From Melioribacteraceae bacterium (lineage in GTDB: Bacteria; Bacteroidota; Ignavibacteria; Ignavibacteriales; Melioribacteraceae): a stretch of DNA of 64,000 bases. The DNA lies in the NCBI GenBank assembly GCA_022181065.1, contig BQMY01000076.1, positions 62,001-126,000 on the forward strand. The letters are read 5' to 3'. The position numbers and the translations under genes are program-made. Positions 12,293 to 29,134 of this stretch are shown one piece after another. Under the pieces are notes generated by a model. That model was not told the origin of the DNA. It made no database searches and saw only the letters and a list, made by a program, of their open reading frames with translations. Position 1 is the stretch's first letter, and each line of letters begins with the position of its first letter.

Positions 12293-12345
12293 AAAATGGA
12301 CTATTTGTTAACAAATTCATCGTTAAATATACCATTAATTTCGCT

Positions 12346-13341
12346 CTAAGAAAAGATTTTACTGACGACTGTTTGCGGGGTTAAATTGTTACCGCAATTA
12401 AAATGTGACTCGGGGCATTTTTTGTATCCATGAATTCCACACGGCTTGCACCGGAGATCATCCAGCCCAATACTTTTGTCTTTTTCTCCGTATGGATAAA
12501 ACCCGAATGCCGGTACTGTGGAGCAGTAAATTGTATAGACTTTTATTCCGGCGGCTACACCCATATGCGCGGGGGCACTGTCATTGCTTATGATCAAATC
12601 ACAGTTCTTAAGAACCTCTACTGTTTCCGGAATTGAATATTCCCCTGCTAAATTATTAGCAGAAACACCCGACTCTCTGATAATTCGATCACATAATTCT
12701 CTGTCAGATACTCCCCCTACCGTAACTATATTATAATTTCCTTCGCTCATCTCTCTAATTAGTTTAGCAAAATATGATTCTGGGTATTTTTTTGTTTCCC
12801 AGACAGATCCTGGCGCTATAACCGCTATTTTATCACCAATACTTTTTACTCTTTCACGTATGCCGGATGCTTTGTCTTCTGAGATATTAATTATTGGTCT
12901 GATTCTCCACTCCCCTGTGTATCCAATCAGACTCAAATCCCGCTTTACTTCATGGGAGTTTTTATCATATTTTATTTGTTTATTGAAGACAAATGGCAGC
13001 GCGGAATTGGAAAACCCTGTTGAGTCTTTAATCCCGGAAAAATAGACAAGCAGCGCAGTACGTAAAGAACGATGCGGAGTGATAATTTTATTATAGCCAT
13101 GCTTAACAAATTGTTTCGCGAATTTATTCACATCACGCAACTTTTTATGATCACCTCTCTTATCAAGAACAAACACTTCATCAACCGAAGGCGATGCTTC
13201 AAAAATTGACTTTGTTGAAGGGATCGCAATAACACCAAGCTTTTGGTCGGGTTCAAGCTCTTTTATTTTTTGCAGAAGAGGCAATGTTAGTATAGCGTCT
13301 CCGGGGAAGGCGGTCTGTATTACTAACGTATTCGTGGGCAT
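12346..13341 (-). CDS. Glycosyltransferase family 9, heptosyltransferase-like
   Basis: 331 residues. GT9 features are seen: the opening LVIQTAFPGDAILTLPLLQKIKE, the central IAVIAPGSVWETKKYPESYFAKLI, and the nucleotide-sugar part IISNDSAPAHMGVAAGIKVYTIYCSTVP. These enzymes add ADP-heptose or similar sugars to lipopolysaccharide core. The C-terminus has a Cys cluster (CKPCGIHGYKKCPESHFNC) common in this family. It is 1 nt from the LpxL-like gene, indicating LPS assembly as the shared process. Confidence 0.88.
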   Translation of the reverse strand: MPTNTLVIQTAFPGDAILTLPLLQKIKELEPDQKLGVIAIPSTKSIFEASPSVDEVFVLDKRGDHKKLRDVNKFAKQFVKHGYNKIITPHRSLRTALLVYFSGIKDSTGFSNSALPFVFNKQIKYDKNSHEVKRDLSLIGYTGEWRIRPIINISEDKASGIRERVKSIGDKIAVIAPGSVWETKKYPESYFAKLIREMSEGNYNIVTVGGVSDRELCDRIIRESGVSANNLAGEYSIPETVEVLKNCDLIISNDSAPAHMGVAAGIKVYTIYCSTVPAFGFYPYGEKDKSIGLDDLRCKPCGIHGYKKCPESHFNCGNNLTPQTVVSKIFS

Positions 13342-13342
13342 T

Positions 13343-14212
13343 TTAGTACTTCCAAATGTTGTGCATCCAGAACCACTGCTCGGGATATTTTTTGAGCGCG
13401 GTTTCCAGTTTAAACATATACTCCTGAGTTATCCAGGCTATTACTTCTTCCTTGGTACCTTCAACTTGCTCATAATTGATTCTTTCAAAAACCGCTTCAT
13501 AAACCTGATTTTCATTACGTACCATCAGAAAGAAGAAAATCGGTGCTTTCGTTTTATAGGCAATTGCCGCTGTCCCGATATATACGGCAGTATCTTGCCC
13601 GAAAAACTTTACTCGCAATCCGTCACTCGGTCCCCGCTGATCACTTACCATCAGCATAGCGCTTCCCGATTTCAGTTCATTGAATATTTCACGCACACCC
13701 AGCCCTAGAGAAACGACCTTTGTTCCAAACAATTCGCGGGCGTCGTTTATCCATTTATTCACATAGCCGTTACGCTGTGGTTTCGCGAGTGCACAAAATT
13801 GTTTGGTAGTAAAACTGTTTAATGATAATCCGGCATACTCCCAATTTCCAAAATGAGCAGATAATAGTAGTGCGCCTTTATTGTTTTCAAGTTCTTTATT
13901 AACTATATCAATGTTTGTATAGTTTACGCGAGAAAGCACTTTCTCTTTTGGTGTGGTAAAAAAGCAGGATACCTCATGCAGGATGGTAATTAAACTTTTA
14001 TAGTTTGAAAGTGTGAGTCTTTTAATCTCCTCTTCGCTTTTGTCGGGGAAAGCCATTTTGAGATTTTTTCGAACAACTTCCTTTCTGAGAGGGATAACGT
14101 AGTACAAAAATCGAGATAATACCGCCGATGTGGAGGCTGCCCGGTCAATTCCGAGCAGACTAAATATTTTCACAAAAAATAGTAAAACCCAATATTCAAG
14201 TTTATTTTGCAT
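13343..14212 (-). CDS. Lipid A biosynthesis acyltransferase, LpxL/HtrB family
   Basis: 289 residues. An N-terminal hydrophobic segment anchors it to the inner membrane. The acyltransferase motif is HFGNWE with His120 and Glu125 (H-x4-E/D), and the glycerophosphate-type block VSDQRGPSDGLRVKFFG follows. It transfers a secondary fatty acid to a lipid A precursor. The close pairing with GT9 supports a complete lipopolysaccharide in this organism. Confidence 0.88.
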   Translation of the reverse strand: MQNKLEYWVLLFFVKIFSLLGIDRAASTSAVLSRFLYYVIPLRKEVVRKNLKMAFPDKSEEEIKRLTLSNYKSLITILHEVSCFFTTPKEKVLSRVNYTNIDIVNKELENNKGALLLSAHFGNWEYAGLSLNSFTTKQFCALAKPQRNGYVNKWINDARELFGTKVVSLGLGVREIFNELKSGSAMLMVSDQRGPSDGLRVKFFGQDTAVYIGTAAIAYKTKAPIFFFLMVRNENQVYEAVFERINYEQVEGTKEEVIAWITQEYMFKLETALKKYPEQWFWMHNIWKY

Positions 14213-14224
14213 ATAAACCCGCTA

Positions 14225-15592
14225 CTAATTGGTTTGAACCCTTCTGGTCCAATTATCATCACGAATCTCACCACGTTTGGTTGAGCTTAACAACTCATAA
14301 TCACTAAATCCTGTGATATCGCCAAATACGAAATACACACCACCTTCAATAGTGTTAAAGTACCAAATTTCATAGGGCTTCATATTCGTTTCATTAGGGT
14401 ATCTGTCAATCTGATCAGGTTCACCATAAAGAAGATAAATCCTGCCTCTGTCAGTTCTGTAACCCTTTTTATAAAACGAGCCATATCTTTCATTTACATA
14501 ATCGAGTCTGTACATATACTCGATTTTAAACTCATTCTCATTTGTTGACGGGTCAGGATCTCTTTTTTTCCAGAACTCGTAAAAATATTCTCTTTTTGAG
14601 TTTAGCGAATCAAGTTTTTCGTACTGATCTATTTCAGATGAAGCGGCAATATATTTACACTTGGCGAACATATCATCAAGTTCTTCTTCACTACTCACGC
14701 CAAACTCTGAACCAAGATAATTAGCTATATATACTTCGGTGTTTGTCGTATCCTTAACATCCGGATTTATCATGTAAAACCGCTTTGTACTGCTCAATCC
14801 CTCATTTTCCGTTGAATCAAACAGAGTCATCACCATGTTGTACGAATCTGTCGGAAATTTCTGCATATTCAATACACCAACTTCAACAATTGACGCATTC
14901 TTTCTCGAGACAGATTTAGTCTTTTGATCAACCAGAATTCCCCGACTATTAAATAAATCCCGCTGCAATATCAATGGGGCATCAGAACCCATATTAAGCC
15001 CATATAATTCCGTGTAGTAAAAAACAACCGGGTTGTTATTAGTGAAAACGGTTATGGGGTTCGGAAGTACTTCGAGAGTATTTTTATAAAAAATAGAATT
15101 TTCGTTTACATTATCATTTTTAATATTTGAAGCCAACTGTATATCAGAAAGTGAAAAATCATCTCTCAATCTCGGTATAACAGTCAGATCTTCGCTAAAC
15201 TCTTTAACCATAGCTGTTTGATTAGGGTCATAACCCTTTACAATTGCCTTGTAATCTCCCCTCGGAACAACAAGTCCGAGCACACCAACCAGGGATTTGG
15301 AGCTGTTCACACCATCTTCAACAATGTTATTTACGCTCCACTCGCGAGAAACATAAGGCGTATCTACACTAATTTCTTTCAGATCAATAAACAGCTTTGC
15401 GGTTACGGTAGTCTGATTCTCTTTTTCGATCCGCTTTAGCTGCTGCTGATTGAAGGAATAATAAAACTCAATATAGTTTGAAGTGGAATCAAATCCGAAC
15501 TGCGCATAGTCAAACTCAAAACTGAAATCATCCTGAGCAGGGATTAACGCGTTTAATATTAAGATAAATAGAACTGTGAAAGTTTTTTTCAT
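14225..15592 (-). CDS. GWxTD-domain secreted protein (paralogue 1)
   Basis: 455 residues with a signal peptide ending near residue 19 (LNALIPAQ). The C-terminal about 150 residues are the GWxTD domain: FWKKRDPDPSTNENE, then GYRTDRGRIYLLYGEPDQIDRYPNE, where the motif is GYRTD instead of GWxTD, then PYEIWYF. The N-terminal 250 residues are predicted mostly beta strand. Function is unknown; the family is widespread in this phylum group. It lies 5 nt after the GT-C/TPR gene and resembles the gene at 17488 over its whole length. Confidence 0.85.
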   Translation of the reverse strand: MKKTFTVLFILILNALIPAQDDFSFEFDYAQFGFDSTSNYIEFYYSFNQQQLKRIEKENQTTVTAKLFIDLKEISVDTPYVSREWSVNNIVEDGVNSSKSLVGVLGLVVPRGDYKAIVKGYDPNQTAMVKEFSEDLTVIPRLRDDFSLSDIQLASNIKNDNVNENSIFYKNTLEVLPNPITVFTNNNPVVFYYTELYGLNMGSDAPLILQRDLFNSRGILVDQKTKSVSRKNASIVEVGVLNMQKFPTDSYNMVMTLFDSTENEGLSSTKRFYMINPDVKDTTNTEVYIANYLGSEFGVSSEEELDDMFAKCKYIAASSEIDQYEKLDSLNSKREYFYEFWKKRDPDPSTNENEFKIEYMYRLDYVNERYGSFYKKGYRTDRGRIYLLYGEPDQIDRYPNETNMKPYEIWYFNTIEGGVYFVFGDITGFSDYELLSSTKRGEIRDDNWTRRVQTN

Positions 15593-15596
15593 ACTG

Positions 15597-17444
15597 TCAG
15601 TCTTGCTTTTGTAGTTGTAATTTCAATTTAATATTCTCTATATCTTTCTGAACAAGAGAATTTACTTCCGGATCGGTCGATAATGTAAGAAACTTCTCAA
15701 AATATGGAAGAGCCTCTTCGTATAATTCCTGCACATACAATGTAATGCCTAAATTTCGGTAAGCATTTGCGAATGTCGGGTCAAGTTCTATACAGGTATT
15801 GTATTCTTTGATAGCTTCCTGAAAATTGCCCATTTGTGTATAAGCGAATGCAAGATTGAAATGAGCCAGCAGGTTATCACCATCACGGTTAATAGCTTTT
15901 TGGTAAGAGGAAACCGCGCTTCTGAAATCTTTTAATCTCGCCAAAGCGTTACCCATATTCATATAGGCAAGCGCGTTATCCTGGAAAAACAAAGATCTGT
16001 TATAATATTCCACTGCCTTTTCATAGTTCTCCTCTTCATATTCAATATCACCCAAATGAATATAAGCGTCAAATTCACCATAAACCGGTTGAAATGAAAA
16101 GAATGTGTAGAAGAACAAAAATCCTCCAATTACATATCCCGGTAGCTTCAGTTTACTGAACTCGCCATTTTTAATGATATCAAAGATATTATATACCGAA
16201 TATGACGCCAGAATTATCAATGCCGGGGTTATGCCGAGTCTGTATCTGCCATTTACAAAGAACAATAATGTTGCTGCGATATAAGTAAAAACAAAAAGAA
16301 TAAACAGTTTATTTTGATTTTTATCCCTGAAACTGAAAACTATTCCAATAATACTCAATAACGAGATAAGGAAAAATCCGGGTAGCGGCAATGTAAGAAT
16401 ATTTGAATAATGCTTTTCAAAGTATCCCAAATCCATAATCGTTGATTGCGGATTCTCACCTTCACCCCAAAAAAGAAAAAACTTGTTCGCGTATAACAGA
16501 ACCGCATCACCCGGTTCTCCGGTCAAGTAATCAATACCACGGCTATACCAGTATGACGAAGCATCTGAATCGGTCATCTTTTGACCGGTTTGGCGTTGCG
16601 CAAACTTCTTACCCGCCATATCCGAACTAATGTCAAATTCTTTCGGGTTTATGTACACACCTGGCGAATCTTCATTATTTCCGAGATAAAAGTTTATCCC
16701 GCCATTGGTTGTAAGGAGAACAAAATCTCCTGAAACAGCGTAATTATAGCCTGTTACAGGCAATATAGGTATAAAAGTACCTACCAAAAAGAAAATAGCG
16801 GCTGTTATTCTTCTGTTTTTGGCAATTAATTTTTCCGATAGCCTGAATATCCAAATCAAACCTACTGGTAAAAACAATAAGATGTTACCGCGAAACAGAA
16901 CCGCAAGTCCGAGTAATATTCCGGTCAATAACCAATGCTTTGTATCAGAATACTTATCTTTTTGTACAAGCATCAGCAGCAGTAAAGACAACACAAACAC
17001 CTGAAATGTTTCCGAAAGTATCGCCCCGCTGTAAAAAATAAAAACCGAGTAGAGTGCTGAAAGTATCGCCCCGATATAGCCGGTAGTTTTTGAATGATAT
17101 TCTCTGCCTGTTAGATAGATCACCAGAATGTTTAGTGTACTCACCAATGCTTGGACAACACGGAAGAAAAATAGTGACTCACCGAATATCTCAACGTAAA
17201 CACCTAAGATGTGCGGGTAAACAGGTGCCATAAAAAATGGGATGTTCCCGATCCATCCATCATTAGCGAGGCTTTTTGCCCAATCTAAATATATTTTGGA
17301 ATCGGAAAATAGATGTGCTACGAACGGAGTACCGGATGTCTCAACAATAAAGAACACCCTTAATACCAGTCCGGTTAAGACGATGTACAATAAATTCTTT
17401 TTCTCTGATTCATCTAAACTGAACATATTCAACATATTTGTCAT
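15597..17444 (-). CDS. GT-C type membrane glycosyltransferase fused to TPR repeats
   Basis: 615 residues. Residues about 1-450 hold ten or more membrane helices with the acidic first outer loop FSDSKIYLDWAKS typical of the PMT/ArnT (GT39-like) fold, which uses lipid-linked sugars. Residues about 470-605 are at least four TPR units (AYMNMGNALARLKDF, AHFNLAFAYTQMGNF, AYRNLGITLYVQELY). The TPR part probably recruits an acceptor protein or complex. It sits between two GWxTD genes, whose products could be acceptors; that is a guess. Confidence 0.8.
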   Translation of the reverse strand: MTNMLNMFSLDESEKKNLLYIVLTGLVLRVFFIVETSGTPFVAHLFSDSKIYLDWAKSLANDGWIGNIPFFMAPVYPHILGVYVEIFGESLFFFRVVQALVSTLNILVIYLTGREYHSKTTGYIGAILSALYSVFIFYSGAILSETFQVFVLSLLLLMLVQKDKYSDTKHWLLTGILLGLAVLFRGNILLFLPVGLIWIFRLSEKLIAKNRRITAAIFFLVGTFIPILPVTGYNYAVSGDFVLLTTNGGINFYLGNNEDSPGVYINPKEFDISSDMAGKKFAQRQTGQKMTDSDASSYWYSRGIDYLTGEPGDAVLLYANKFFLFWGEGENPQSTIMDLGYFEKHYSNILTLPLPGFFLISLLSIIGIVFSFRDKNQNKLFILFVFTYIAATLLFFVNGRYRLGITPALIILASYSVYNIFDIIKNGEFSKLKLPGYVIGGFLFFYTFFSFQPVYGEFDAYIHLGDIEYEEENYEKAVEYYNRSLFFQDNALAYMNMGNALARLKDFRSAVSSYQKAINRDGDNLLAHFNLAFAYTQMGNFQEAIKEYNTCIELDPTFANAYRNLGITLYVQELYEEALPYFEKFLTLSTDPEVNSLVQKDIENIKLKLQLQKQD

Positions 17445-17487
17445 TTTAAATTGTGCGTATTTATAGTTGAAAGATACGGAAATTTAA

Positions 17488-18870
17488 TTATCGTGAGAAG
17501 TAATCAGTTCCTTCAATATTTATTTGCTGCTGCCAAAAACGATTACTTATTTCACCTCGCTTATTTGAATGAATTTGTCTGTAATTTCCCAAACTGTTAA
17601 AATCCGCGAATACAAATATCACTCCGCTTTCCAGACTATTATAGCGCCATATTTCATATGGTACTCTTTCTGATTCATTGGGATATCTTGAAATATCATC
17701 AGGTTTTCCGTAAATCATGTAAACCCTGCCCATATCAGTTTTGTACCCGTTCTTGATAACAATATTGGAATACTCCGTATTCGCGAACTTGTATCTCTTA
17801 AGATATTCAGCTCTGGCTTCATTTTCTGGTGTTGACGGATTTGGATCTCTTCTCTTCCAGAATTCGTACAGATAATTTCTTTTTCCATCAACTGTAAGAA
17901 TCGCTTCCCACGCGTCAATCTCATTTTGGGTTGCCAGATATTTACTGTAAGAGAAAACAAACTTTAGTTCTTCATTATCCATAAGTGAAAACTCTGTAGC
18001 TAAAAGATCATTCTCTGTGCTGATGGCTAATGTTGTGTCGATCTTTTCCGGGTTATATACAAATATTTTCCTGAACGAGTATGCGCTTTTGTTACTTACT
18101 GTATCTGTTAACGAAACGTTAATTGTATAAGCTCCGGCGGGTAAATCCATAATATTAATAGCGCCAATTTCAACTCTTGAGCTCGACTTTCTGCTTATGT
18201 ATTTACTTTTGGAATAACTTATCTCATTCCGTGTATTGCGTAATTGATGATCGACCCTTAGTTTCTCGGAATCTTTCGATTTATCCAGATTATATAGCTC
18301 GCAGTAAAAGTATAATACAGGCAGCCCTTCACCGAATACCATACCGGGGTTAGGAATTACTTCCATTCTGTTTTTATAGAAAATTGATTCTGTGTTTTCT
18401 GTAAACTGAATAATATCACTTGCTATTTCCAGATCACTTATTGAGAAAACAGCGTCATCAGATTTTTGTGCAACCAGTTCAAATTCTTTGCTGTCAGAAT
18501 TGATATCCGCGAGAATGTCCTTACCTGAAAGATTCACAACATATCTTCCAAACGGGACTTGCAGACTTATTAACCCTGTGAGGTTACCCTCGGAAAGTTC
18601 TTTTTTATTTCGCTCGAATTCCCAGGAATCGCTATAGTAGGGGACCAGTTCTTTTTCCTGTTTCTTCATTTCAAGAACAAGTAAACCCTTAACAAAGTCT
18701 TCACCTTCAATCAACTCACTCGTCATACTATTTACCGGAAAACTATAGTAAATCTCGAGATATTTTGATGTATCATCATAGTTAAAGAGAGCATAATCGA
18801 AAGCGGGTGCAAATTCGCTCTGCGCCCACAAACTTGAGAAAGCAACGAAGAAAAACAAAATCTTTTTCAC
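17488..18870 (-). CDS. GWxTD-domain secreted protein (paralogue 2)
   Basis: 460 residues from a GTG start; signal peptide ends near residue 17 (FSSLWAQ). Same layout as the gene at 14225: beta-rich N-terminal part, FWKRRDPNPSTPENEARAE, then GYKTDMGRVYMIYGKPDDISRYPNE and PYEIWRY. The motif again has Tyr for Trp. It is 43 nt upstream of the GT-C/TPR gene and begins after the terminator that closes the porV transcript, so it may have its own promoter in the 80-nt gap. Confidence 0.85.
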   Translation of the reverse strand: MKKILFFFVAFSSLWAQSEFAPAFDYALFNYDDTSKYLEIYYSFPVNSMTSELIEGEDFVKGLLVLEMKKQEKELVPYYSDSWEFERNKKELSEGNLTGLISLQVPFGRYVVNLSGKDILADINSDSKEFELVAQKSDDAVFSISDLEIASDIIQFTENTESIFYKNRMEVIPNPGMVFGEGLPVLYFYCELYNLDKSKDSEKLRVDHQLRNTRNEISYSKSKYISRKSSSRVEIGAINIMDLPAGAYTINVSLTDTVSNKSAYSFRKIFVYNPEKIDTTLAISTENDLLATEFSLMDNEELKFVFSYSKYLATQNEIDAWEAILTVDGKRNYLYEFWKRRDPNPSTPENEARAEYLKRYKFANTEYSNIVIKNGYKTDMGRVYMIYGKPDDISRYPNESERVPYEIWRYNSLESGVIFVFADFNSLGNYRQIHSNKRGEISNRFWQQQINIEGTDYFSR

Positions 18871-18900
18871 TGTATAACCCCGAAAGTAATTGTAAATACA

Positions 18901-18926
18901 AAAAAAGGCTGATCACTCAGCCTTTT
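18901..18926 (-). terminator. Rho-independent terminator after the PorV-like gene
   Basis: AAAAGGCTGA (18903-18912) and TCAGCCTTTT (18917-18926) with a 4-nt loop; on the minus strand a T run follows. It separates the surface module from the GWxTD/LPS cluster. Confidence 0.92.
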
Positions 18927-18950
18927 CTTGCGTAATGTAAAAATTGTTAC

Positions 18951-19988
18951 TTAAAAACCAACATTTAAAGTCACCATGTGGTTCGCGTCGAAGTAAGTCG
19001 CGCTTCTGAAAGCGTAATCAACACCAAGTCGCAAGTCACCTGGTACCTTGAAACCAACACCGAAAGTAGGACCAAAAATTGATTCTTCTTCAACATTTGC
19101 CGCTTCTGATACATAAGTGTAACCACCACGGATAAACACCATATTATCATAAACAAATTCACCGGCAAATTTATACTCATCATTGGAGAAGGTATTATTC
19201 TGGAATGATGATGAGAAAGTTGCTGAATACAAATCAGAAAATCTTCTTTCGTATGCTAAACCGAGTTCCATCTGAGATGGTAATTCGAATGCAGCAGCGT
19301 TAATTTCTCTAAACTGAGCGCCTTTTAGTGTTTCATCATCAGTAGCGCTTCTCAAAAGGTCAGGACCGGAAAATTGCATTTTCGGACCAAGGTTCTTAAG
19401 AACCAATCCGAATTTGAGTCCTTCAATACCCGCAAGACCGTTATACTGAACACCAGCGTCAAAAGCAACACCTGACGCAGCAACACGTTCAATTTCTTCA
19501 GTAATAAGGTTAACATTCAATCCAACACGAATTCTGTCAGTAAGCGCGTTAGAATAGGTTACACCAAATATTACAAATGTTGGTGAAAATGTTGCGCCTG
19601 TTCCATAAGGGTTTTCGATTGTAGTATAAGGTATATCGCCAAAGTCAAGGCTTCTTACGCTTATACCGATGGAACCGAAATCTTCCATATGGAATGCAGC
19701 CGCAGCATATGTAAAGTTAATATCAGCAATGTAGTTCATGTACGAGAACATAGCTTCAGCGTTACCACCGGCTGCGCCCAATCCAGCAGGATTGTAGTAA
19801 ATCGCATCAAGCCCGGTAATTCCTGAAGTATACGCACCGCTAAGAGCAAGACCTCTTGCGCCAACCGGTATCAGCAATTCCTGGGCACCTCCGGTACCGT
19901 TTCTCTTGCCGCCTCCGGCAAATACATCGACGAAGAGCACAAGAAGAACAACAATTGCCGCTAATATATGTGTACTTCTTTTTAACAT
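18951..19988 (-). CDS. PorV/PorQ-family outer-membrane beta-barrel protein
   Basis: 345 residues with a signal peptide. The block GAQELLIPVGARGLALSGAYTSGITGLDAIYYNPAG (about 33-70) is the diagnostic start of the PorV/UPF0164 barrel family (FadL-like). The rest is alternating beta strands, ending MVTLNVGF with a C-terminal Phe. PorV shuttles T9SS cargo to the attachment complex; many genomes of this group have several paralogues with specific partners. It follows the 1065-aa protein by about 60 nt and ends at a terminator. Confidence 0.88.
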   Translation of the reverse strand: MLKRSTHILAAIVVLLVLFVDVFAGGGKRNGTGGAQELLIPVGARGLALSGAYTSGITGLDAIYYNPAGLGAAGGNAEAMFSYMNYIADINFTYAAAAFHMEDFGSIGISVRSLDFGDIPYTTIENPYGTGATFSPTFVIFGVTYSNALTDRIRVGLNVNLITEEIERVAASGVAFDAGVQYNGLAGIEGLKFGLVLKNLGPKMQFSGPDLLRSATDDETLKGAQFREINAAAFELPSQMELGLAYERRFSDLYSATFSSSFQNNTFSNDEYKFAGEFVYDNMVFIRGGYTYVSEAANVEEESIFGPTFGVGFKVPGDLRLGVDYAFRSATYFDANHMVTLNVGF

Positions 19989-20052
19989 TTTTCAATCTCC
20001 TTAATAATTTTTGCAATACAACATACCCGGGGAAAATTCACCCCGGTTACGC

Positions 20053-23000
20053 TTATATTCTATCGATGTATTGCGCTTCCACAATTATCGCCAATTTCAA
20101 TATTTTCTCGCCGATTCCCGGCATCTCAATGTGAGCGATATACATACCGCTGGCTACCGGAAGATTATCTTTATTCAACAAGTTCCAGTTAACCCAGTCA
20201 GCTGTGTCATTCTTTTCAATTTTTGTGATAAACACACCGGAAAGTGAGAATATTCTGATTGTAGCTTCCTGGGGTAAACCAAGGAATCTAACAAATCTGT
20301 CATATTTACTCCCTTCAAGAGAATGACTAGCAAAGTATGGATTCGGGAATACGGTAATTTCATCCATATTGGCTTTACCTTCTTCAAGATCCTGAGCTTC
20401 AGATGCATTAACTGAAAATTCAAACGCATCACCGGATTCGAGAGGTCTGTAAGATACTAATCTAATAACAGTACCGGTTGGAGGAAGGTCACCGTCAAAA
20501 ACAAGGTTACCAATTCTCTGGGTATTTCTGTTATATTTAGGAGATTCTGCATCAAAAGTTGCTGGATAAGTATCCACTTCAAATGTATAAATAGCTTCCC
20601 ATTGGCCATTTGCCGCTTGTGTCCATTGACCATCTGTAGTTGGAATATCATCATTCGCGTCTTTATCCATTACTTTAACCACAAGACGAGTATCATCTGC
20701 AGGATCATCCAAATCGGCACCAAGGTTCCAAACTTCAAAAGGAACTGTGTTAGGAGCCAATGGATCACCGGCGATACCTGCACCGTTAAACGCAGGAGAT
20801 CTCATACTGGCAGCATAATACTGACTACCCGCTGCGGTAAATCTTACTTCATAAGTAAATAGACCAATTTTATCTTCAACATTCAATGTAGCTTTTGTTG
20901 GCGGATCAGTCCTTCCAGCTGGTAAGTAAGCACTAGACAAAATCTGATAATTTGCCGCGGTACCTGTTTCACCAAATACATTACCGGTAACTTCTCCGTT
21001 TACAACTTCAAGTACGTCACGGATTCCGCTATCGTTACCATCAAGTGAATCGAGACCATCATCAAATACATTCACGTAGAAACCATCAGTTACTCTGTTA
21101 AATTTAGAGTCATCAGTTTCAACACCAAAGTTAGGCATGTGCAATAACAATGTATCTTTTGGTTCTGTATTGTCAATTTTGTAGCGTGTAACATCGAACA
21201 GATTCCATGTAAGGTCACCATCAACAGTTTCCATTACTACTTCATAAGTAGCGTCTTCCAATGCCCATGGATCAACAACGGTAAAGTTAACTCGCGCGTG
21301 AGCGTCACCTTCGGAAAGTGTACCAAATTGCTCTTCACCGGGCTGTAACGAGTAACTTTCGTCAATGTTTTTCCTGCGAGGGAAAATTTCCTGAATTACT
21401 GGTGGACTTTCAAGGAACTGAGGAACACTATTTTCGTTGTAACCATATGCGGTAACAGCAAAGTAGTATGGATTACCATTAACCAATTTTGAATCATCCC
21501 TGGTAGCATCAACATCAACTTTAAATGTTGTTGTCAATCCTTCATCCAAACTCTGGAATACAATAAATTCTACAGGAACCGGACTAATATCACCAACAGT
21601 ACGTATTTCTGTAATTTTGCTTATTCCGTTTGCTATATCAAAGGTAGCGAGCAATTCAGCTTCATCAAGGGAAGAACTGATACTTGGGAACTGCCATACT
21701 CTGTAACCTTCAAATGTGTAAGTTGTATCGTCATAACCAAGGTTAAAGATCAACGGGTTAACTTCATCATAATCTTCTGAATTAGTTTCCCACCATAATG
21801 TAATTTCACTATCACCGGAAAAGGCGTGAACATTTGGTGCCGGAGGTGGAGGAGTAATATCGAAGTCAAGATCATACGCGATCTGAGCAGCATTATCCAA
21901 TCGTTTAAGCTCCGTAACAGAATTTAATCTGTCTGTACCTTGTGCAATTAGAATACCAACTACAACTTCCTGAGTATCACCTACTTCCATAGTAAAAGGA
22001 CCGGAAGCCATTAGGTGTCTCCTGTCGCCAGGATCAGGACCACCGCCCCAACCACCAGGACCTTCATACCAACCTGTTTTACCAACAGGATCACCCGCAA
22101 GAACGAAATCTGTAGGCTGATTTGTATTTGGATCGATAAATTCATCTCCATTCCATACATATCCGTCAAGGTAGTTGTACATCTGCTGTGAACCGGCAGC
22201 AACACCAAGGTCAGGATCAGAGTAAGTAGCGTCACCGTTAATGTAGAAAGTAAACGCTGTCATTGGAAGGTTGCTGTAACCATGTCTCCATTCACCCAGG
22301 AATTTAGCGCTGTCAGCTGCAGTAGCTTCAACAATAGGCCCCTGGAAGAAATCATAACCAACGGCAGGCGGAGGTGAACCATATATATCATTATCGTCTT
22401 CATCACCATTATAGGTATAACCCAAACTTAACACTGTATCACACCCGGTATAGTCATCAGTAGCAAATCCAAGGTCCGTATCCGACCAGTAACCGAGGAT
22501 CATGTCATTAAGTGATCTTGAACCTTTGTTAATGATGGTATACTTCTTAAAGACCATGTTACCAAGGTCACCAGTCAGGTTAAAACCAAATACTGTAGTC
22601 TGAATTTCAAGACCCATCGGGTTTGTACCATATAAGAATGTAGTTCTACCGGCATCCATATCATTCGATACACACCAGAGTACTTCATCACCAACAAAAT
22701 CAGGTTCATCGATTCCGGCGGTAAAAGAACCATCACCATCGACGTCTATATATGGTGCGCCATCTTCTGCAGGCCATTCGTCGTAATCTTTCTGCAATCT
22801 GTCACGAAGGTCAGGATCAGGAACTCCCTGCCAACCTTTTCTGATTTTGAAAATTCTGTACTTATCAAGACTCGGGTCATCTGCCAGACCGTTATCAAGA
22901 ATTTTACCGGCTTGCAAACCATATCGGTAAGTAGCGCCACCGGTTCTGATTTCACGACCAACTTTCGCGCCCCAGATCAAACCATCGGCAAAAATTGCAG

Positions 23001-23250
23001 TTTTATCCGCGTTTTCACCACCCGGCCAGTAGAAACCTGAGTCGTCACTACGAGGGTCATGAGAACCCATACCATTATTACCAATCCACATCAGGATCTG
23101 GTTAATGGAAATGTAATCATTAAAGTCATTTTGGCTTGTTTTAGACAAGCGGTTGTACGGACTGTCACCTTTCTCTTTATAAAAACCGAAAGAGAGGGCT
23201 CCCAGAAGCACCGCTACTGTCATAACAATTAAAATTTTATTTTTCGTCAT
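20053..23250 (-). CDS. Large secreted surface protein with FN3-like region and possible T9SS-type C-terminus
   Basis: 1065 residues, signal peptide at 1-24. The first 480 residues are rich in Gly, Asp and aromatic residues, including a calcium-loop-like DVDGDGSFTAGID and YNGDEDDND. About 480-625 resembles a fibronectin III domain (PPPPAPNVHAFSGDSEITLWWE, then NPYYFAVTAYGYNE). The end (about 970-1065: EITVFPNPY, IRIFSLSGVFITKIEK, ASGMYIAHIEMPG) has the form of a T9SS sorting domain but with an unusual extra tail VEAQYIDRI. No enzyme motif was recognised. Lies between the TonB receptor and PorV genes, so it may be their partner. Confidence 0.7.
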   Translation of the reverse strand: MTKNKILIVMTVAVLLGALSFGFYKEKGDSPYNRLSKTSQNDFNDYISINQILMWIGNNGMGSHDPRSDDSGFYWPGGENADKTAIFADGLIWGAKVGREIRTGGATYRYGLQAGKILDNGLADDPSLDKYRIFKIRKGWQGVPDPDLRDRLQKDYDEWPAEDGAPYIDVDGDGSFTAGIDEPDFVGDEVLWCVSNDMDAGRTTFLYGTNPMGLEIQTTVFGFNLTGDLGNMVFKKYTIINKGSRSLNDMILGYWSDTDLGFATDDYTGCDTVLSLGYTYNGDEDDNDIYGSPPPAVGYDFFQGPIVEATAADSAKFLGEWRHGYSNLPMTAFTFYINGDATYSDPDLGVAAGSQQMYNYLDGYVWNGDEFIDPNTNQPTDFVLAGDPVGKTGWYEGPGGWGGGPDPGDRRHLMASGPFTMEVGDTQEVVVGILIAQGTDRLNSVTELKRLDNAAQIAYDLDFDITPPPPAPNVHAFSGDSEITLWWETNSEDYDEVNPLIFNLGYDDTTYTFEGYRVWQFPSISSSLDEAELLATFDIANGISKITEIRTVGDISPVPVEFIVFQSLDEGLTTTFKVDVDATRDDSKLVNGNPYYFAVTAYGYNENSVPQFLESPPVIQEIFPRRKNIDESYSLQPGEEQFGTLSEGDAHARVNFTVVDPWALEDATYEVVMETVDGDLTWNLFDVTRYKIDNTEPKDTLLLHMPNFGVETDDSKFNRVTDGFYVNVFDDGLDSLDGNDSGIRDVLEVVNGEVTGNVFGETGTAANYQILSSAYLPAGRTDPPTKATLNVEDKIGLFTYEVRFTAAGSQYYAASMRSPAFNGAGIAGDPLAPNTVPFEVWNLGADLDDPADDTRLVVKVMDKDANDDIPTTDGQWTQAANGQWEAIYTFEVDTYPATFDAESPKYNRNTQRIGNLVFDGDLPPTGTVIRLVSYRPLESGDAFEFSVNASEAQDLEEGKANMDEITVFPNPYFASHSLEGSKYDRFVRFLGLPQEATIRIFSLSGVFITKIEKNDTADWVNWNLLNKDNLPVASGMYIAHIEMPGIGEKILKLAIIVEAQYIDRI

Positions 23251-23293
23251 TGTTTTCTCCGCTATAAATTAATTCAGTTTCACCAGAGAATTA

Positions 23294-26167
23294 TTAATAT
23301 TCAATCCTGATACCAAGATTTACCTGGCGTGGTGGTCCAAAATTGTTAGCATCATACACGTTTGCCAGATATACTTGCTGGTAAAGTTGAGCTGCTTCTT
23401 CTCCACCGATACGCTTCTGCTCGGATATCTGTCTCTGACCATCAGGTGATGCAAGATAACCATCATCATAAGGATCGCCGGTAACGTTAAACACACTAAT
23501 AACATTTTTAGTGTCAAGCAGGTTAACTACCCAAACATAGGCGTTAAGGCTTAAAGGACCAATTTCGAATGATTTGTCAATTCTTAGATCCAGCTGGAAT
23601 GTCCATGGCGTGGTTGACTCGTTCAACTGTTCCGTAGGAATTCTGGATTGATTAAAACCAGTCCATCTTGTGTAGTTGAAACCACTTGAGAAAGTGAACA
23701 ATAAGTTCGCGCCTAATTCAGAGAATATTTTTGAACCAAATAGTTCCGGACCATCATCTTCACCAAAACGGTAGTCAATATTCATTGCGCCTGAATGTGT
23801 CTGGTTAAATGACAATGGAGCTATCTGCTGAGGGAAGAATGGATCTTTTGTTGGCGACTGCCAAATCATTCTGGCCGCTTCGTTAGGTGTGGAACCTGTT
23901 CCCTGAGCATCACTGAATGTATAATCAACTGTTGCAGAGAGACGATTTGTTCTTCTTAAATCAAATTTTAACTCAAAACCTTTGGTTGTTGAGAAGTCAC
24001 CATTAACCAAAGCGTAATATCTTGAATGCTGTGCACCGGCATCGGCAAATATTGGTCTTGCCTGAATCTGGTCTCTGATATCTTTGTAGAAACCTGTGAT
24101 ATCAAACGCGAAGTTTTCACCCAACTGCTGACGGAAACCAATTTCGTACTGGGTTGTTCTTTCAGGTCTCAAACCATAACCAACAGGATTCAATTCAGCA
24201 AAACCACCTTTGATAATATCAGAGGCATTGTTGAAACCAAGATAAACGTTACGTAACTGCGACTGCTGAATAAATTTACCATACTGTGCATGGAAATTTG
24301 TTCTGTTTGTTACAGGGAATGAGAAACCAAGACGAGGACTGATCTGAAGCAATGGTTCAACATCTACCAAATAATCTGGATCAATTATATCGTCTGCGTC
24401 AAACTGAACATTACTAGCATTTTCAAATGTTTTTGAGTCAATGTCTATATAATCAAGACGGAAACCAAGGTTAACAACGAGATCAGAATACTCCATTTTA
24501 TCCTGAATATAGAATGCAGCGAAAACAGGATTTTTCGGACCATAGATTTCATCGTCAGTAGCGTTGCCGTAAACATCATAACCATAGTTGTCAAGTCTGT
24601 CATAAACGTCACGGATATCGCCATCAGGACGAGACATCAAGTTTGACAATAGTGGGAATGAGTAATAAGAATATCTTCTGATTGTATAATAAGTAAAGTC
24701 ACCACCTGTTTTAAATTCGTGGTGTTTTCCAATCTGATACAAGAAGTTAGCTTTACCACCGAAAGATTTAGTGCTCATCTTTCTGTAAGAACTTACACCT
24801 TCCTGCTCAAACACTGTATTAAAAGCACGAACACCAAGATCCCACTGACCATCAGTAATAGGATAATATCCAAGACCGGCATTGGCAATACTGTCACCAT
24901 AAGCAAGAATATCATGCTGGAAGTATGGATCCATAGTTACATAGAAGTCATCGAAGTAGTTAAAAATCACATCGTAGAATGACTTGTTGTTGATTGCGTG
25001 AGTTATTTTTACACTAGTGTTGAGAGTCTGATCTTCGTTCAAAGGAGCTTTATCCTCGAACATGATATCTTTCCAGTCAAAACCACTACGATATTTATTA
25101 TACTCGTAGTTAGCATTTACTTTAATAGTAAATGGCTGTAGTTCGTACATCAATGAAGCATAACCCTGATATTTGTTGCTTGCAGAGTTGGTTGACTGAT
25201 GAGGAGCTCTGTAAATACTGGTAGTATCAGCAGAAGCACCCAATGTAGCGTCAAACAATACCGGGAAATCATATTCTCTATAATATCTTGCTGCGGTTCT
25301 GCGGAAAATATTTGAACCCGCGAAGAAGAATTTAAGATTTTTCATTGAAGGCAATACAGGACCGCCAACAGTGAAAGAATATTCCGAATAACCATAAGGA
25401 TACCATCCGCCTGCAAATTCCTCACCAACTTCCGAACCCGGTATATTGTCAGTAATAGCTTCTAAACTGAAACTGTAGTTTTCACTACCGGTTCTTGAAG
25501 TAGTGGAAATAATACCACCATTCGCACCACCAAACTCGGCTGTATAACCACCGGCCTGGAACTGAACCTCTTCGATAGCGTTTTGGATTGGCTGTGTACG
25601 AGCGCCACCAAATACAGGGTTATTTACAAGTACACCGTCAACATAAAACGCAACCGCGTCACTTCTACTTCCTCTAACATAGAGGTTTCCACCCTGGTTA
25701 ACAACACCTGCCTGATTAGCAACAAGCGCGTTAACACCTCTTACCGGCAAGTTTTTAATATCGTCTTTACCAACAATATTTGTAGAGTTGGTAATGTTTT
25801 TATTAATAAGCGGTTTTGGTGCAATCACCGTAACCAGATCGGTTTCATAAGTTTCGGACGGAAGCGAGAAATCTGCTTCAGTAGTCAGGTTCACCGAAAC
25901 ACGGATGTTACTCATGGTAACTTCCTGGTAACCGATATAACGGGCTTTCAATGTGTACGTACCCGCAGGAACATTAAGTATTAGATACTCACCGTTTTCA
26001 TTTGTTGCGGCACCAAGTGTTGTACCTTCGATAAGGATATTAGCTCCGAGAAGAGCTTCACCAGTTTCAAGGTCTGTTACGGTACCAACAATTTTACCGG
26101 ACTGCGCGAAAGTTATAACCGGCAATAGAAACAGGAGTAAAATTAAAATTTGTTTAAACTTGGGCAT
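23294..26167 (-). CDS. TonB-dependent receptor with carboxypeptidase-regulatory domain
   Basis: 957 residues. Signal peptide ends at FAQ (about 22). Residues 25-105 are the CarboxypepD_reg-like domain (GKIVGTVTDLETGEALLGAN, GYQEVTMSNIRVSV). The plug is about 115-230 (NITNSTNIVGKDDIKNLPVRGVNALV, YVRGSRSDAVAFYVDGVLV). The remainder is a 22-strand-type barrel ending RQVNLGIRIEY. The receptor lacks a SusD partner in the window; a DUF4397 lipoprotein stands upstream instead. Substrate unknown. Confidence 0.9.
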   Translation of the reverse strand: MPKFKQILILLLFLLPVITFAQSGKIVGTVTDLETGEALLGANILIEGTTLGAATNENGEYLILNVPAGTYTLKARYIGYQEVTMSNIRVSVNLTTEADFSLPSETYETDLVTVIAPKPLINKNITNSTNIVGKDDIKNLPVRGVNALVANQAGVVNQGGNLYVRGSRSDAVAFYVDGVLVNNPVFGGARTQPIQNAIEEVQFQAGGYTAEFGGANGGIISTTSRTGSENYSFSLEAITDNIPGSEVGEEFAGGWYPYGYSEYSFTVGGPVLPSMKNLKFFFAGSNIFRRTAARYYREYDFPVLFDATLGASADTTSIYRAPHQSTNSASNKYQGYASLMYELQPFTIKVNANYEYNKYRSGFDWKDIMFEDKAPLNEDQTLNTSVKITHAINNKSFYDVIFNYFDDFYVTMDPYFQHDILAYGDSIANAGLGYYPITDGQWDLGVRAFNTVFEQEGVSSYRKMSTKSFGGKANFLYQIGKHHEFKTGGDFTYYTIRRYSYYSFPLLSNLMSRPDGDIRDVYDRLDNYGYDVYGNATDDEIYGPKNPVFAAFYIQDKMEYSDLVVNLGFRLDYIDIDSKTFENASNVQFDADDIIDPDYLVDVEPLLQISPRLGFSFPVTNRTNFHAQYGKFIQQSQLRNVYLGFNNASDIIKGGFAELNPVGYGLRPERTTQYEIGFRQQLGENFAFDITGFYKDIRDQIQARPIFADAGAQHSRYYALVNGDFSTTKGFELKFDLRRTNRLSATVDYTFSDAQGTGSTPNEAARMIWQSPTKDPFFPQQIAPLSFNQTHSGAMNIDYRFGEDDGPELFGSKIFSELGANLLFTFSSGFNYTRWTGFNQSRIPTEQLNESTTPWTFQLDLRIDKSFEIGPLSLNAYVWVVNLLDTKNVISVFNVTGDPYDDGYLASPDGQRQISEQKRIGGEEAAQLYQQVYLANVYDANNFGPPRQVNLGIRIEY

Positions 26168-26199
26168 ATTTTTCTCCCCTAAACTATGAATAAAACCAG

Positions 26200-27105
26200 T
26201 TATCTTGGTCTCGTAGATGTTATTAAACTTTCTTCGTACTTAGCAAACGAAGCGTTTGATGGCTCACCATGTAAAACTATCAGGGTAGTCATTCCGGCTT
26301 TCAGATCGAAAGTACCCGTTACATGAGAAAGCGTATCAAGTATATTTGCGTCATCAGGATTAGCCTGAATTGAATAAAATTCAAGGTCATAATTTCCTTC
26401 AGTAATGATACCGCCAACGTAATGAGGGTCGCTGGTAATTTCAAGAGCATCATCAGCATCACCAAGAAGTGTATCAATTTCACCCAATGTGTTATTTGTT
26501 AGCGTGATAAATGTGTAAGGCAATTCTAAATCAGTCTGACCTCCGGTATAAACACCTGCAGCAGCATGGATACATTTAAGAACACCCTGATTTGATTCAA
26601 GATAAACTTTTTCTTCACCATTAGGATCAGGAAGCTGATGATAATCATCAAGATAAGTTTGACCAAGCCAGATATACTGACCCATTACTGTATTATTGTC
26701 TTCGTTTGCGTCGTATGTACCGGTGAATATTAAAATTGCTTCTTCATAAGATCCCATACCAATCAAACCTTCAAATATTACAGTACCTGAGCTGTTTTGT
26801 AGCCTGATATTTCTGTTGCCTGCATTCACATCGAAGTATGCAGTATATTGTCCGTTTGTAAGATTGTTGGCAACAGCACTTCCGCCAAGACTGGTAAAAC
26901 TGTTCATCGCAGTAAAATTATCAACACCATCGTTTGTATTATCGATAGATACGTTGAGCACATCTGCGTTTGTCACAAAATTAGCCACCCTTAATTGCGT
27001 GTAAGGTCTTTCAAGTATTTCCATATCGGGTTCATCTACGCATCCGGTTAGGAACAAACCGCCAAATACTAGAAAGGTGATAAAAACTTTAAATTTAGAT
27101 AGCAT
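26200..27105 (-). CDS. DUF4397-domain lipoprotein
   Basis: 301 residues. Lipobox FLTGC puts the lipidated Cys at 22. The sequence YTQLRVANFVTNADVLNVSID starts a DUF4397 domain (cell-surface beta sandwich, unknown function), and a second similar half follows (QGVLKCIHAAAGVYTGG). An outer-membrane lipoprotein 32 nt upstream of a TonB receptor gene suggests a surface partner, in the position that SusD occupies elsewhere, though there is no SusD similarity. Confidence 0.8.
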   Translation of the reverse strand: MLSKFKVFITFLVFGGLFLTGCVDEPDMEILERPYTQLRVANFVTNADVLNVSIDNTNDGVDNFTAMNSFTSLGGSAVANNLTNGQYTAYFDVNAGNRNIRLQNSSGTVIFEGLIGMGSYEEAILIFTGTYDANEDNNTVMGQYIWLGQTYLDDYHQLPDPNGEEKVYLESNQGVLKCIHAAAGVYTGGQTDLELPYTFITLTNNTLGEIDTLLGDADDALEITSDPHYVGGIITEGNYDLEFYSIQANPDDANILDTLSHVTGTFDLKAGMTTLIVLHGEPSNASFAKYEESLITSTRPR

Positions 27106-27212
27106 TATTTACCTCTAATCTAATTGATTTTGTTTATTTAATGACAAATTTATCCGACTTGCAATTATTTAGCTAATATTAGTCGAGGTAAATCAAATAG
27201 ATGGTAACCAGA

Positions 27213-27238
27213 CGGGAAACCATATTTCAGGTTTCCCG
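27213..27238 (-). terminator. Hairpin after the T9SS cargo gene
   Basis: CGGGAAACC (27213-27221) pairs with GGTTTCCCG (27230-27238), loop 8 nt. No long T run follows, so it may stabilise the transcript or terminate weakly. Confidence 0.5.
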
Positions 27239-27265
27239 CGTGATTTGGAGCTTATTTTAAGCCAA

Positions 27266-29134
27266 TTATTTCAATAACATCATCTTGGCTGATTTCACAA
27301 AGTCACCAGCTTTGATTTCATAAATGTAAACGCCTGAGCTTAGGTTTGATGCGTCGAAGTTAACTGTGTAACTTCCTGCATTCTGTGCTTTGTTAACCAA
27401 AGTAGCTACTTCAGCACCAAGAACGTCATACACTTTAAGTGTTACGTTTGAAGACTTAGCAATTTCATATTTGATTGAAGTTGCAGGGTTGAATGGGTTA
27501 GGATAGTTCTGACCAAGATTATAGTCAAATTCACCAATACCATCTTCAACACTTGAAACAGTGGTAAATGATACTGCTACAGGAGCTGCATAATATACAG
27601 TTGGATCTGTCAATGGTACACCGGCACCATATTCAAATCCTGCAGGATAATAATAGAATGAGAAACCTGTATAAGTAGTAGTTGTGTCACCACCTTCAAC
27701 AGTTACTTCTTTCGCAAGACTAGGAGCGAAATGTGAACCGTTTTCGTTAAAACCGGGTGTTTCAGTAAGGTTCATTGCATCTGACCATTCAGCATCATCA
27801 AGATGTCTGTATGCCGCGTAAACATCGCAGAAAGCAGAGTCGCCACCATCATGAGTAACCCACTGAGCCATCATGAATTCGCGATCAGCATCAAATGCCA
27901 AATATACAGATGGACCCATCTGACCAAGAGCTACACCATCATACTGTGTAAATGTAGAGTCAGAAAGAAGTTCACCATCCAGGATGATTTTTTTATCCCA
28001 GCCAGCGTCTGTTTCAATAAATTCAACCATGAAGTTTGAACCATATTCATCAGAAACAGCTGTATCGATAGCTGTTACACCGGTAACGATGTGAACATAA
28101 CCATCTTTATCAACGTTAATGTCACCCTGATAACTGATAAATTCGTCACCTTTGATGTAGTCCCAAAGTTCGTGATAAGAAGCTCTGTCATCAATTACAT
28201 AAGTAAGTGAGTCAACGAGATTCCAGTCACTCCATGTATCACCATTATCTTCTGATTTACTGTAACCGATACCCCAGCCACCGAACGGGTTTGTCCAACC
28301 AAATTCTTCAGCGAAAGAACCGATAACACCATAATAAGCAACGCCATTAGCAGAAACGCCACCCATGGTAATGTTACCATTGTCACCGAATGCAGCTGAA
28401 TTCCAGTTTTCAGGATTGATTTCAGTTACGTCAGAATAGTCAGTAGTTTTCCACAATGTGATAGAAGCGTCATCAGTATTATCAGACATCCAGAATACAT
28501 AACCATTTCCATCGCCATCAGTGTGTGTGAAAACAGGTACCTGAGAGCTGTAAAGTGGAGTAGATGTTGGATCACCATCGTTAGTGATAGCAGCAAAGTC
28601 AGCGCCATCAAAACCCTGATCAGCCGCGAAACCAACATGCTGGAACTGTACAGGATTAGAATTCAATTCAGGCCATGCGAAAACAGCGATAGTTTCGCTG
28701 AAATCTTCTGCCATGCCAGGATTGAAAATAGCCGCTGACGGGTAACGAGCAAGAATCTGCGCGTTATCACCGTTAACAGAAGTAGCGCTTCTCATCCATG
28801 ATTGACCATGGTCAGTTGAATATCCGTACCACAATTCACCGGAACCGGCTGAATATGTAGTAGAACCACGATATACCACTAGAGCTGTGTTTGTATATGG
28901 ATCAAAAGCTGCGGGATTCAATGCGCCAATAGCAGGACCATAAACGTTAGGCATTGTATCAACAGCAACATAGTTAGCAGCCGTTACAGGGGATGGACCA
29001 CCAACATTAAGAACGCTCTCTACAGCAACTGCAGGTGCGTCCACGATAACTGGAGCTTTTTTAGCTGACTGCGCAAACATTACGCCTGAAGCTATCAAAG
29101 CTACCAAAAGAACGGTAAAGAGTTTTTTGTGCAT
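27266..29134 (-). CDS. T9SS cargo protein with Asp-box propeller-like repeats
   Basis: 622 residues, signal peptide ending at about 22. Two Asp-box motifs are visible, STDHGQSW at 106-113 and SEDNGDTW at 294-301, as in sialidase-type beta propellers, but no catalytic sialidase arginine triad can be claimed. The last 85 residues are a textbook type A sorting domain: NYPNPFNPATSIKYEI, VYDVLGAEVATLV, LSSGVYIYEIKAGDF. It is exported by T9SS and probably anchored on the surface. It has its own 5' region of over 400 nt. Confidence 0.85.
   Translation of the reverse strand: MHKKLFTVLLVALIASGVMFAQSAKKAPVIVDAPAVAVESVLNVGGPSPVTAANYVAVDTMPNVYGPAIGALNPAAFDPYTNTALVVYRGSTTYSAGSGELWYGYSTDHGQSWMRSATSVNGDNAQILARYPSAAIFNPGMAEDFSETIAVFAWPELNSNPVQFQHVGFAADQGFDGADFAAITNDGDPTSTPLYSSQVPVFTHTDGDGNGYVFWMSDNTDDASITLWKTTDYSDVTEINPENWNSAAFGDNGNITMGGVSANGVAYYGVIGSFAEEFGWTNPFGGWGIGYSKSEDNGDTWSDWNLVDSLTYVIDDRASYHELWDYIKGDEFISYQGDINVDKDGYVHIVTGVTAIDTAVSDEYGSNFMVEFIETDAGWDKKIILDGELLSDSTFTQYDGVALGQMGPSVYLAFDADREFMMAQWVTHDGGDSAFCDVYAAYRHLDDAEWSDAMNLTETPGFNENGSHFAPSLAKEVTVEGGDTTTTYTGFSFYYYPAGFEYGAGVPLTDPTVYYAAPVAVSFTTVSSVEDGIGEFDYNLGQNYPNPFNPATSIKYEIAKSSNVTLKVYDVLGAEVATLVNKAQNAGSYTVNFDASNLSSGVYIYEIKAGDFVKSAKMMLLK

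Follow-up and report, generated by a model that had tools for sequence, protein, structure and literature searches.

In Porphyromonas gingivalis two proteins of the type IX secretion system (T9SS) attachment complex retain their C-terminal domains (CTDs) and stay on outer-membrane barrels, PorU on PorV and PorZ on PorQ (PMC5562754, PMC8545088, PMC10202324). Type B cargo proteins have a PorP/SprF barrel of their own, encoded directly downstream and proposed to shuttle and anchor the cargo (PMC12618676, PMC9143113). In SusCD/RagAB and BtuBG a TonB receptor is paired with a large surface subunit, and in the BamG-BamH pair of the Bacteroidota BAM complex the outer loops of a FadL-family barrel hold a surface protein (PMC12611786, PMC12578637). 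Here we analyse a locus within a 64,000-nucleotide stretch of a Melioribacteraceae genome (the window; contig BQMY01000076.1, positions 62,001 to 126,000) in which genes for a TonB-dependent receptor, a large exported surface protein (LARGE) and a barrel of the PorV/PorQ family (PORV) follow one another. The LARGE-PORV pair has the genetics of the type B/PorP-SprF pairs and the protein kinship of PorZ/PorQ, and in many bacteria related to the Bacteroidota the trio probably sets a large, barrel-held surface protein beside a nutrient-uptake gate.

As in PorZ-PorQ and PorU-PorV, the locus pairs a surface protein carrying a type A-like CTD with a PorV/PorQ-family barrel, on which the CTD may likewise be retained; LARGE, however, has neither propellers nor a sortase domain, the equivalog cut-offs are not reached, its gene shares an operon with a TonB receptor gene, and its C-terminus carries 8 extra residues where one is reported for PorZ and three for PorU (PMC11285876). 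The order of a cargo gene followed by a gene for its own barrel, a proposed anchor, is that of the type B CTD/PorP-SprF systems (PMC12618676, PMC9143113, PMC10202324), but the LARGE CTD is kin to type A and PORV is kin to PorV and PorQ. The large subunit beside a TonB receptor recalls SusCD/RagAB and BtuBG, from which the locus differs in that LARGE is neither a lipoprotein nor a SusD, a separate barrel would act as the holder and the receptor lies far under the SusC cut-off. BamH, finally, is a lipoprotein and BamG serves BamA, and PORV scores 26.3 bits with the BamG model NF053685, under its equivalog cut-off of 250. A sequence-only reading that preceded this work knew of no published function for the combination, and searches of the open-access literature of PubMed Central (PMC) likewise found neither the combination nor a description of the trio or of the C-terminal tail of LARGE.

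A conserved trio and an optional lipoprotein

The window encodes, all on the minus strand and in this order, a DUF4397-like lipoprotein (26200-27105, 301 amino acids (aa)), the TonB-dependent receptor (23294-26167, 957 aa, an N-terminal carboxypeptidase-regulatory-like domain followed by plug and barrel), LARGE (20053-23250, 1065 aa) and PORV (18951-19988, 345 aa, a 14-strand PorV/PorQ-family barrel), with intergenic gaps of 32, 43 and 64 bp and a further 80 bp between PORV and the next gene. These are the four codirectional genes that the sequence-only reading had joined into one surface module, and all four open reading frames (ORFs) are as it gave them. The constant core is three genes, namely receptor, LARGE and PORV, which recur in the same order in 100 intact triads, 92 of them unique, among the ORFs of loci L048-L186 and the window. 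Median gaps are 36 bp (receptor/LARGE) and 19.5 bp (LARGE/PORV), below 150 bp in 100/100 and 99/100 triads, and a recurrence this tight is beyond chance. Unique counts are used because named and unnamed loci partly duplicate the same genomes. The loci were collected by likeness to the window LARGE or with a CTD profile derived from proteins that have the tail, and the tail frequencies given below therefore do not hold for T9SS proteins in general.

LARGE relatives are present in all 58 related genomes, the window's own included (53/53 genera), and a search by CTD profile finds the family in 256 of the 294 genomes of the class. LARGE loci were recorded from Ignavibacteria, Calditrichota, Zixibacteriota, Marinimicrobia/Neomarinimicrobiota, KSB1, Cloacimonadota and Rhodothermales, an intact triad not being found at every one. 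The own genome has 18 places that match LARGE, nine of them LARGE-barrel pairs, and 15 places above the PorV_fam cut-off. Furthermore, the patristic distances of the three trio proteins correlate (rho 0.776, 0.857 and 0.855 over 85 triads, 7 of the 92 being left out for short proteins; the highest of 200 label permutations gave 0.228), which means that the three travel together and says nothing of contact.

Of the 80 unique triads in which a gene precedes the receptor, 18 have a DUF4397-like gene immediately before it; the lipoprotein is an optional member of the module. The module as first read is thus conserved in its three-gene core and not in its lipoprotein; rare co-occurrence, the outcome which that reading had named as speaking against it, is what the comparison of gene order finds for the lipoprotein and the opposite of what it finds for the other three genes. 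The window lipoprotein gives 17.5 bits with DUF4397 (PF14344; E 0.0064, gathering threshold 30.6), while homologues in the same position at L062 and L108 reach 47.2 and 44.3 bits, and its LTGC motif, read by eye, is presumably a lipobox.

The receptor matches CarboxypepD_reg (PF13715), Plug (PF07715) and the TonB barrel (PF00593) above the Pfam cut-offs and scores 57.3 bits with the SusC/RagA model TIGR04056, far under the cut-off of 368. SusD models match none of the operon's genes, and the two models PF07980 and PF14322 find nothing in the own genome; a true SusCD system is ruled out by this result from two models together with the receptor score. SusD_RagB matches occur in 12 of the 58 related genomes, against 58 for LARGE and 57 for SprA, and LARGE-type caps would therefore be commoner here. 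SusD and LARGE also co-exist in related genomes, and absence of SusD from the whole group is ruled out by the 12 matching genomes and by the sus operon reported for Melioribacter roseus (PMC3534657). The lipoprotein, to which the place of SusD had been given earlier, is too seldom upstream to be a general SusD counterpart; LARGE, as the receptor's constant partner, is the better candidate for that place.

The four genes are probably a single transcript, because hairpins flank both ends: a probable terminator 3' of PORV, in which a hairpin is joined to a T tract (18898-18931, minus strand, -21.4 kcal/mol, 0 of 200 shuffles as stable), and a second hairpin 5' of the lipoprotein gene, within 27205-27250 (-22.3 kcal/mol). 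Against one unit stands that neither hairpin is among the sites of a consensus terminator scan, whose total of 7 sites is at chance level (shuffle mean 6.5). The same scan does include a hairpin at 20046-20027, in the gap between LARGE and PORV, so that transcription may in part end within the unit.

LARGE and the barrel encoded beside it

PORV scores 155.2 bits with the PorV/PorQ family model NF033709 (cut-off 90), and its structural model has a predicted local distance difference test (pLDDT) value of 90.8. The nearest solved structure is PorV itself (6h3i_F, Z 33.3 over 278 residues; 8gl6_F, Z 33.2), followed by CymD, TodX and FadL at Z 26-30 and BamG at Z 25-26. Among the named T9SS barrels PorQ is the best match of the window PORV (E 2.6e-25, against 7.4e-13 for PorV), at 89.2 bits with NF033711 and so under the equivalog cut-off of 220; PorV_fam and PorQ both match 62 of 62 PORV relatives. 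PorP (TIGR03519) matches 13 of these 62, the window PORV not among them, and PorP/SprF, BamG and FadL are ruled out as its family, being below cut-off or farther than PorV.

Residues 951-1051 of LARGE (20098-20400, minus strand) form a T9SS-type CTD nearest to that of PorZ. Taken alone this CTD gives 23.1 bits with TIGR04183, barely above the cut-off of 23, under which whole LARGE remains (17.1 bits), and its best family match is PorZ (NF052228, E 1.2e-7). The likeness to PorZ is confined to the CTD, with 25.8 bits against an equivalog cut-off of 260; the LARGE model lacks the two beta-propellers and shows another N-domain fold. At E≤0.01 PorZ matches all 54 CTD relatives (best E 3.2e-14), as does TIGR04183, and PorU matches 32; PF18962 matches 30 of the 54 and not the window LARGE. 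As LARGE CTDs match PorZ and PORVs match PorQ, each partner on its own indicates a known anchored pair, so that the pairing of LARGE with the PORV barrel is well supported, in agreement with the earlier proposal of a PorV-type barrel as partner of the large protein.

The CTD is followed by a tail of fixed length, residues 1052-1065 (20056-20097, minus strand; KLAIIVEAQYIDRI), that runs 8 residues past the usual type A end. Ordinary type A proteins end in K or R about 6 residues after the lysine, and in these genomes the strand lysine stands six from the end (KMMLLK; KMSVIR in the own PorU), whereas LARGE ends 14 residues from the lysine in a hydrophobic residue. The atypical C-terminus noticed from the sequence is thus real and also conserved, with K at -14 in 86 of the 92 unique triads, a consensus of K-[LV]-A-[IV]-[IV]-Q-E-Q-Q-x-L-D-R-[FY], and F (44), Y (28), I (7), L (6) or M (1) as last residue. 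In 212 CTD-barrel pairs, the most biased set because it was collected by the tail-based CTD profile, 200 have this lysine; the other 12 comprise one with R (L323), one that looks frameshifted (L174), two that are one residue short (L143, L146), one that is four residues short (L096) and seven own-genome paralogues ending in K or R. Among the 133 ORFs with at least 1300 bases downstream, to which the comparison was confined, K at -14 is found in 90 of 100 LARGE with PORV next and in 8 of 33 without (Fisher p 1.6e-12, the rows not being independent). Of 92 tail-bearing LARGE with PORV, 82 have the TonB receptor upstream, 3 have none and 7 lie at a contig end. PorZ (5m11), for comparison, ends one residue beyond its last aligned strand residue (alignment E 0.95).

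Two PORV segments bear on how the CTD may be held, namely residues 86-90 (19719-19733, minus strand) and 116-136 (19581-19643, minus strand), which we assign to extracellular loops 1 and 2 by the usual barrel rule that the C-terminal strand ends in the periplasm. A88 and F116 in these loops align with N87 and F115 of Flavobacterium johnsoniae PorV, whose main-chain carbonyls bind a near-invariant CTD lysine of RemZ (PMC10994853); K1052 of LARGE may or may not be its counterpart. The loops are conserved at 2.89 and 2.64 bits, against a protein mean of 2.25 and 0.94 in loop 294-304. Furthermore, the five strongest couplings between CTD and PORV all fall in putative extracellular loops (PORV positions 214, 216, 218, 222 and 333; one partner is tail residue E1058), which 0 of 90 permutations equalled, in an analysis of 182 pairs (effective number 139, 8-letter alphabet) where phylogeny was not controlled. 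The 182 are what remains of the 212 pairs once those are removed that lack K/R at -14, end in K/R or have a barrel match of no more than 250 aa.

LARGE as a whole was modelled with AlphaFold2 (mean pLDDT 81.8) as a confident N-domain (residues 44-460 in the model), beta-sandwich modules resembling immunoglobulin or FnIII domains, a variable middle of low confidence, the CTD and a last block of low confidence; conservation per column is about 1.2-1.3 bits in the middle, 2.24 in the N-domain and 2.61 in the CTD. The N-domain (residues 44-465; 21856-23121, minus strand) is predicted to share its fold, known as the super-beta-sandwich, with the N-terminal, non-catalytic domains found in glycoside phosphorylases, glucodextranase and glucoamylase; the helical catalytic partner of that fold is not in the model. 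VIA-align gave 9ju0 (Z 19.4, 256 residues, 3.3 A), 1ug9 (Z 18.8) and 1lf6 (Z 18.6), and all 50 matches listed, among Foldseek's first 1000 chains, are carbohydrate-active enzymes. Glycan binding by the N-domain may be suggested from this likeness, although a shared fold gives no function. Residues 470-610 (21421-21843, minus strand) form a beta-sandwich that appears FnIII-like by eye from the strand pattern of the model, with FnIII chains among the Foldseek matches at low TM-scores. LARGE has no Pfam match at E≤1 and its profile finds no PDB sequence better than E 0.38, which rules it out as a T9SS enzyme. PorZ, the top Foldseek row at E 8.8e-9, is rejected as a whole-protein relative by a TM-score of 0.10.

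LARGE-like proteins that have neither receptor nor barrel also exist and end as ordinary type A CTD proteins, and the N-domain therefore serves as plain secreted cargo as well. Tandem arrays of LARGE-like genes, mostly lacking a barrel of their own and with shorter or ordinary C-termini, are seen at L171, L096 and L070, and at one place of one genome the LARGE reading frame is broken into two ORFs, 251 and 1009 aa long (L055 9282-13124, L178 3427-7269). Acidic loops in residues 169-180 and 257-271 (DVDGDGS, DTDLGFATDD) look like calcium sites by eye, and all of 62 sequences keep D257, D259, G261 and D266.

A model for a surface subunit proposed to be held by its own barrel

We propose a model in which the trio would form a complex for uptake at the outer membrane, its external part staying in place with no lipid anchor. 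LARGE would cross the outer membrane via SprA, after which PORV would take and keep it. Its CTD would stay uncut, with the conserved 14-residue end helping to lock it on PORV, and LARGE would be a permanent surface subunit on PORV as PorZ is on PorQ. The N-domain would then lie over or beside the TonB receptor and capture a ligand, most likely a saccharide, working like SusD over SusC. The own genome has SprA (1052.5 bits) and PorU (922.9 bits) beside a PorV, and SprA is above cut-off in 57 of the 58 related genomes and, among genomes with other LARGE loci, in 23 of 24. Given SprA, PorU and the adjacent PorV of the own genome, the simplest reading is export by SprA, uptake by PORV and a LARGE that stays. 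The constant TonB receptor upstream in turn suggests that LARGE serves the receptor from outside, as SusD serves SusC.

What the computations establish is the conserved operon, the domain content, the fixed tail, the PorZ/PorQ likeness and the T9SS translocon and sortase of the genome; CTD retention, a role for the tail, receptor contact and the ligand are inferred, and we do not hold the parts of the model with equal firmness. Export of LARGE by the T9SS together with its pairing with PORV is likely, and retention of the CTD seems somewhat more probable than its loss. For the predicted contact by which LARGE would cap the receptor the chances appear even, and the same balance holds for export, CTD held on PORV and capping taken together, whatever the ligand. 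A saccharide as that ligand is suggested tentatively, from the fold.

Several observations weigh against this model. The genome has a PorU sortase, so the CTD may be cleaved. In seven other LARGE-barrel pairs of the own genome LARGE has the ordinary type A C-terminus (FALIK, FAVVR and similar), which shows that the tail is not needed for pairing, and eight of the LARGE that have no adjacent PORV still have K at -14. Extra C-terminal residues prove nothing by themselves, because CTDs of P. gingivalis tolerate artificial ones, extensions of PorU, PorZ and PPAD being described as harmless (PMC11285876). On the barrel, conservation is higher in one periplasmic turn (149-152, 3.14 bits) than in loops 1 and 2. 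The excess of couplings in loops fades down the ranking, six of the top ten being reached by 1 of 90 permutations and eight of the top twenty by 9 of 90, and the couplings are a hint only, as phylogeny was not controlled and couplings within the proteins are noisy. Correlated distances are weak evidence of contact, since they are expected of genes inherited together, and no outstanding glycoside hydrolase family is found among the neighbours of the trio.

The same facts can be arranged otherwise. PORV could be a dedicated shuttle only, which would receive LARGE at SprA and hand it over at a shared PorU site; there the CTD would be removed and LARGE attached to lipopolysaccharide (LPS) or set free. 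Receptor and LARGE would then share an operon and not a complex, and the tail would serve parallel shuttles as a recognition code. The PorU of the genome, the barrels of own-genome pairs that lack the tail and the cognate PorP/SprF shuttles encoded directly downstream of type B cargo (PMC12618676) would all suit a shuttle; it leaves the receptor upstream of 82 of the 92 tail-bearing LARGE unexplained, however, and the CTDs resemble one that is retained in PorZ, and we regard it as doubtful. If the PorZ likeness is followed further, LARGE and PORV could together bind LPS or O-glycan and assist its display, with a receptor that senses or exports and does not import. PorZ, the best match of the CTD, is named for delivery of A-lipopolysaccharide (A-LPS), and lipid A acyltransferase, family 9 glycosyltransferase and M23 peptidase genes follow here, with clusters of this kind close to the trio at 26 and 17 loci. 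Yet these envelope genes lie beyond the hairpin 3' of PORV, LARGE has no PorZ beta-propellers, and most of the other places among about nine LARGE-barrel pairs in one genome have no such neighbours, which makes a role in envelope building very unlikely.

A cap might also serve a ligand other than sugar, be it a metal chelate, cofactor or peptide, as BtuG does on BtuB, a capped receptor outside SusCD (PMC10404256). The receptor is not a SusC by cut-off and a fold likeness does not give a ligand, but every one of the N-domain fold matches listed is a carbohydrate-active enzyme, and we consider a non-sugar ligand unlikely. That PORV is instead a FadL-type channel for hydrophobic compounds, placed beside LARGE incidentally, is scarcely credible: FadL, TodX and CymD do match its structure, but PorV lies nearer, and neither the strict order in 92 unique triads nor the conserved loops that bind the CTD in PorV would be expected.

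If the proposed model is right, it describes a new way to build uptake gates, with the surface subunit on its own membrane barrel, and it would assign a role for the first time to a protein family for which Pfam has no model. The cap reading, if true, would join T9SS secretion and TonB uptake, studied apart until now, and would suggest what stands in for SusD in the uptake systems of many of these bacteria. With some reserve, the model may be extended across the Fibrobacteres-Chlorobi-Bacteroidetes (FCB) group to a separate class of capped TonB receptors, in which an outer subunit delivered by the T9SS has, in place of a lipid, a dedicated PorV/PorQ barrel as its tether; the CTD would be a distinct sorting type whose fixed 8-residue extension with hydrophobic end plugs into or onto the barrel and shields the CTD from the sortase, and the class would replace SusCD in lineages mostly without SusD, such as Ignavibacteria. 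The many natural LARGE-barrel pairs, with and without the tail in one genome, make the idea testable.

Neighbouring genes

Downstream of PORV lies a gene for a GWxTD-domain protein (17488-18870, minus strand; TIGR04514, 96.1 bits against a cut-off of 28); a search of open-access PMC papers gave no match for the term GWxTD. It is a frequent neighbour outside the core, directly downstream in 30 of the 88 unique triads with a gene there. Within 14225-18870 this protein and a second GWxTD protein (14225-15592) flank a TPR/glycosyltransferase-like protein with PMT_2 and TPR domains, and after them, at 11444-14212, come the lipid A acyltransferase (PF03279), the family 9 glycosyltransferase (PF01075) and the M23 peptidase, the like of which recur near the trio in related genomes.

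The neighbours of the trio point to no single pathway and include two-component systems beside some copies, NHL proteins (6/36), one GH3 and one transaldolase/PGI with G6PD. Histidine kinase and response regulator genes lie directly upstream of the trio at L050, L051, L133 and L164, and at L051 the transaldolase/PGI and G6PD genes follow it. Directly upstream of the operon, at 27266-29134, the window encodes a protein with an ordinary type A CTD, and secreted proteins resembling it are found upstream in related loci, for example L080-L082, L084 and L108-L110.

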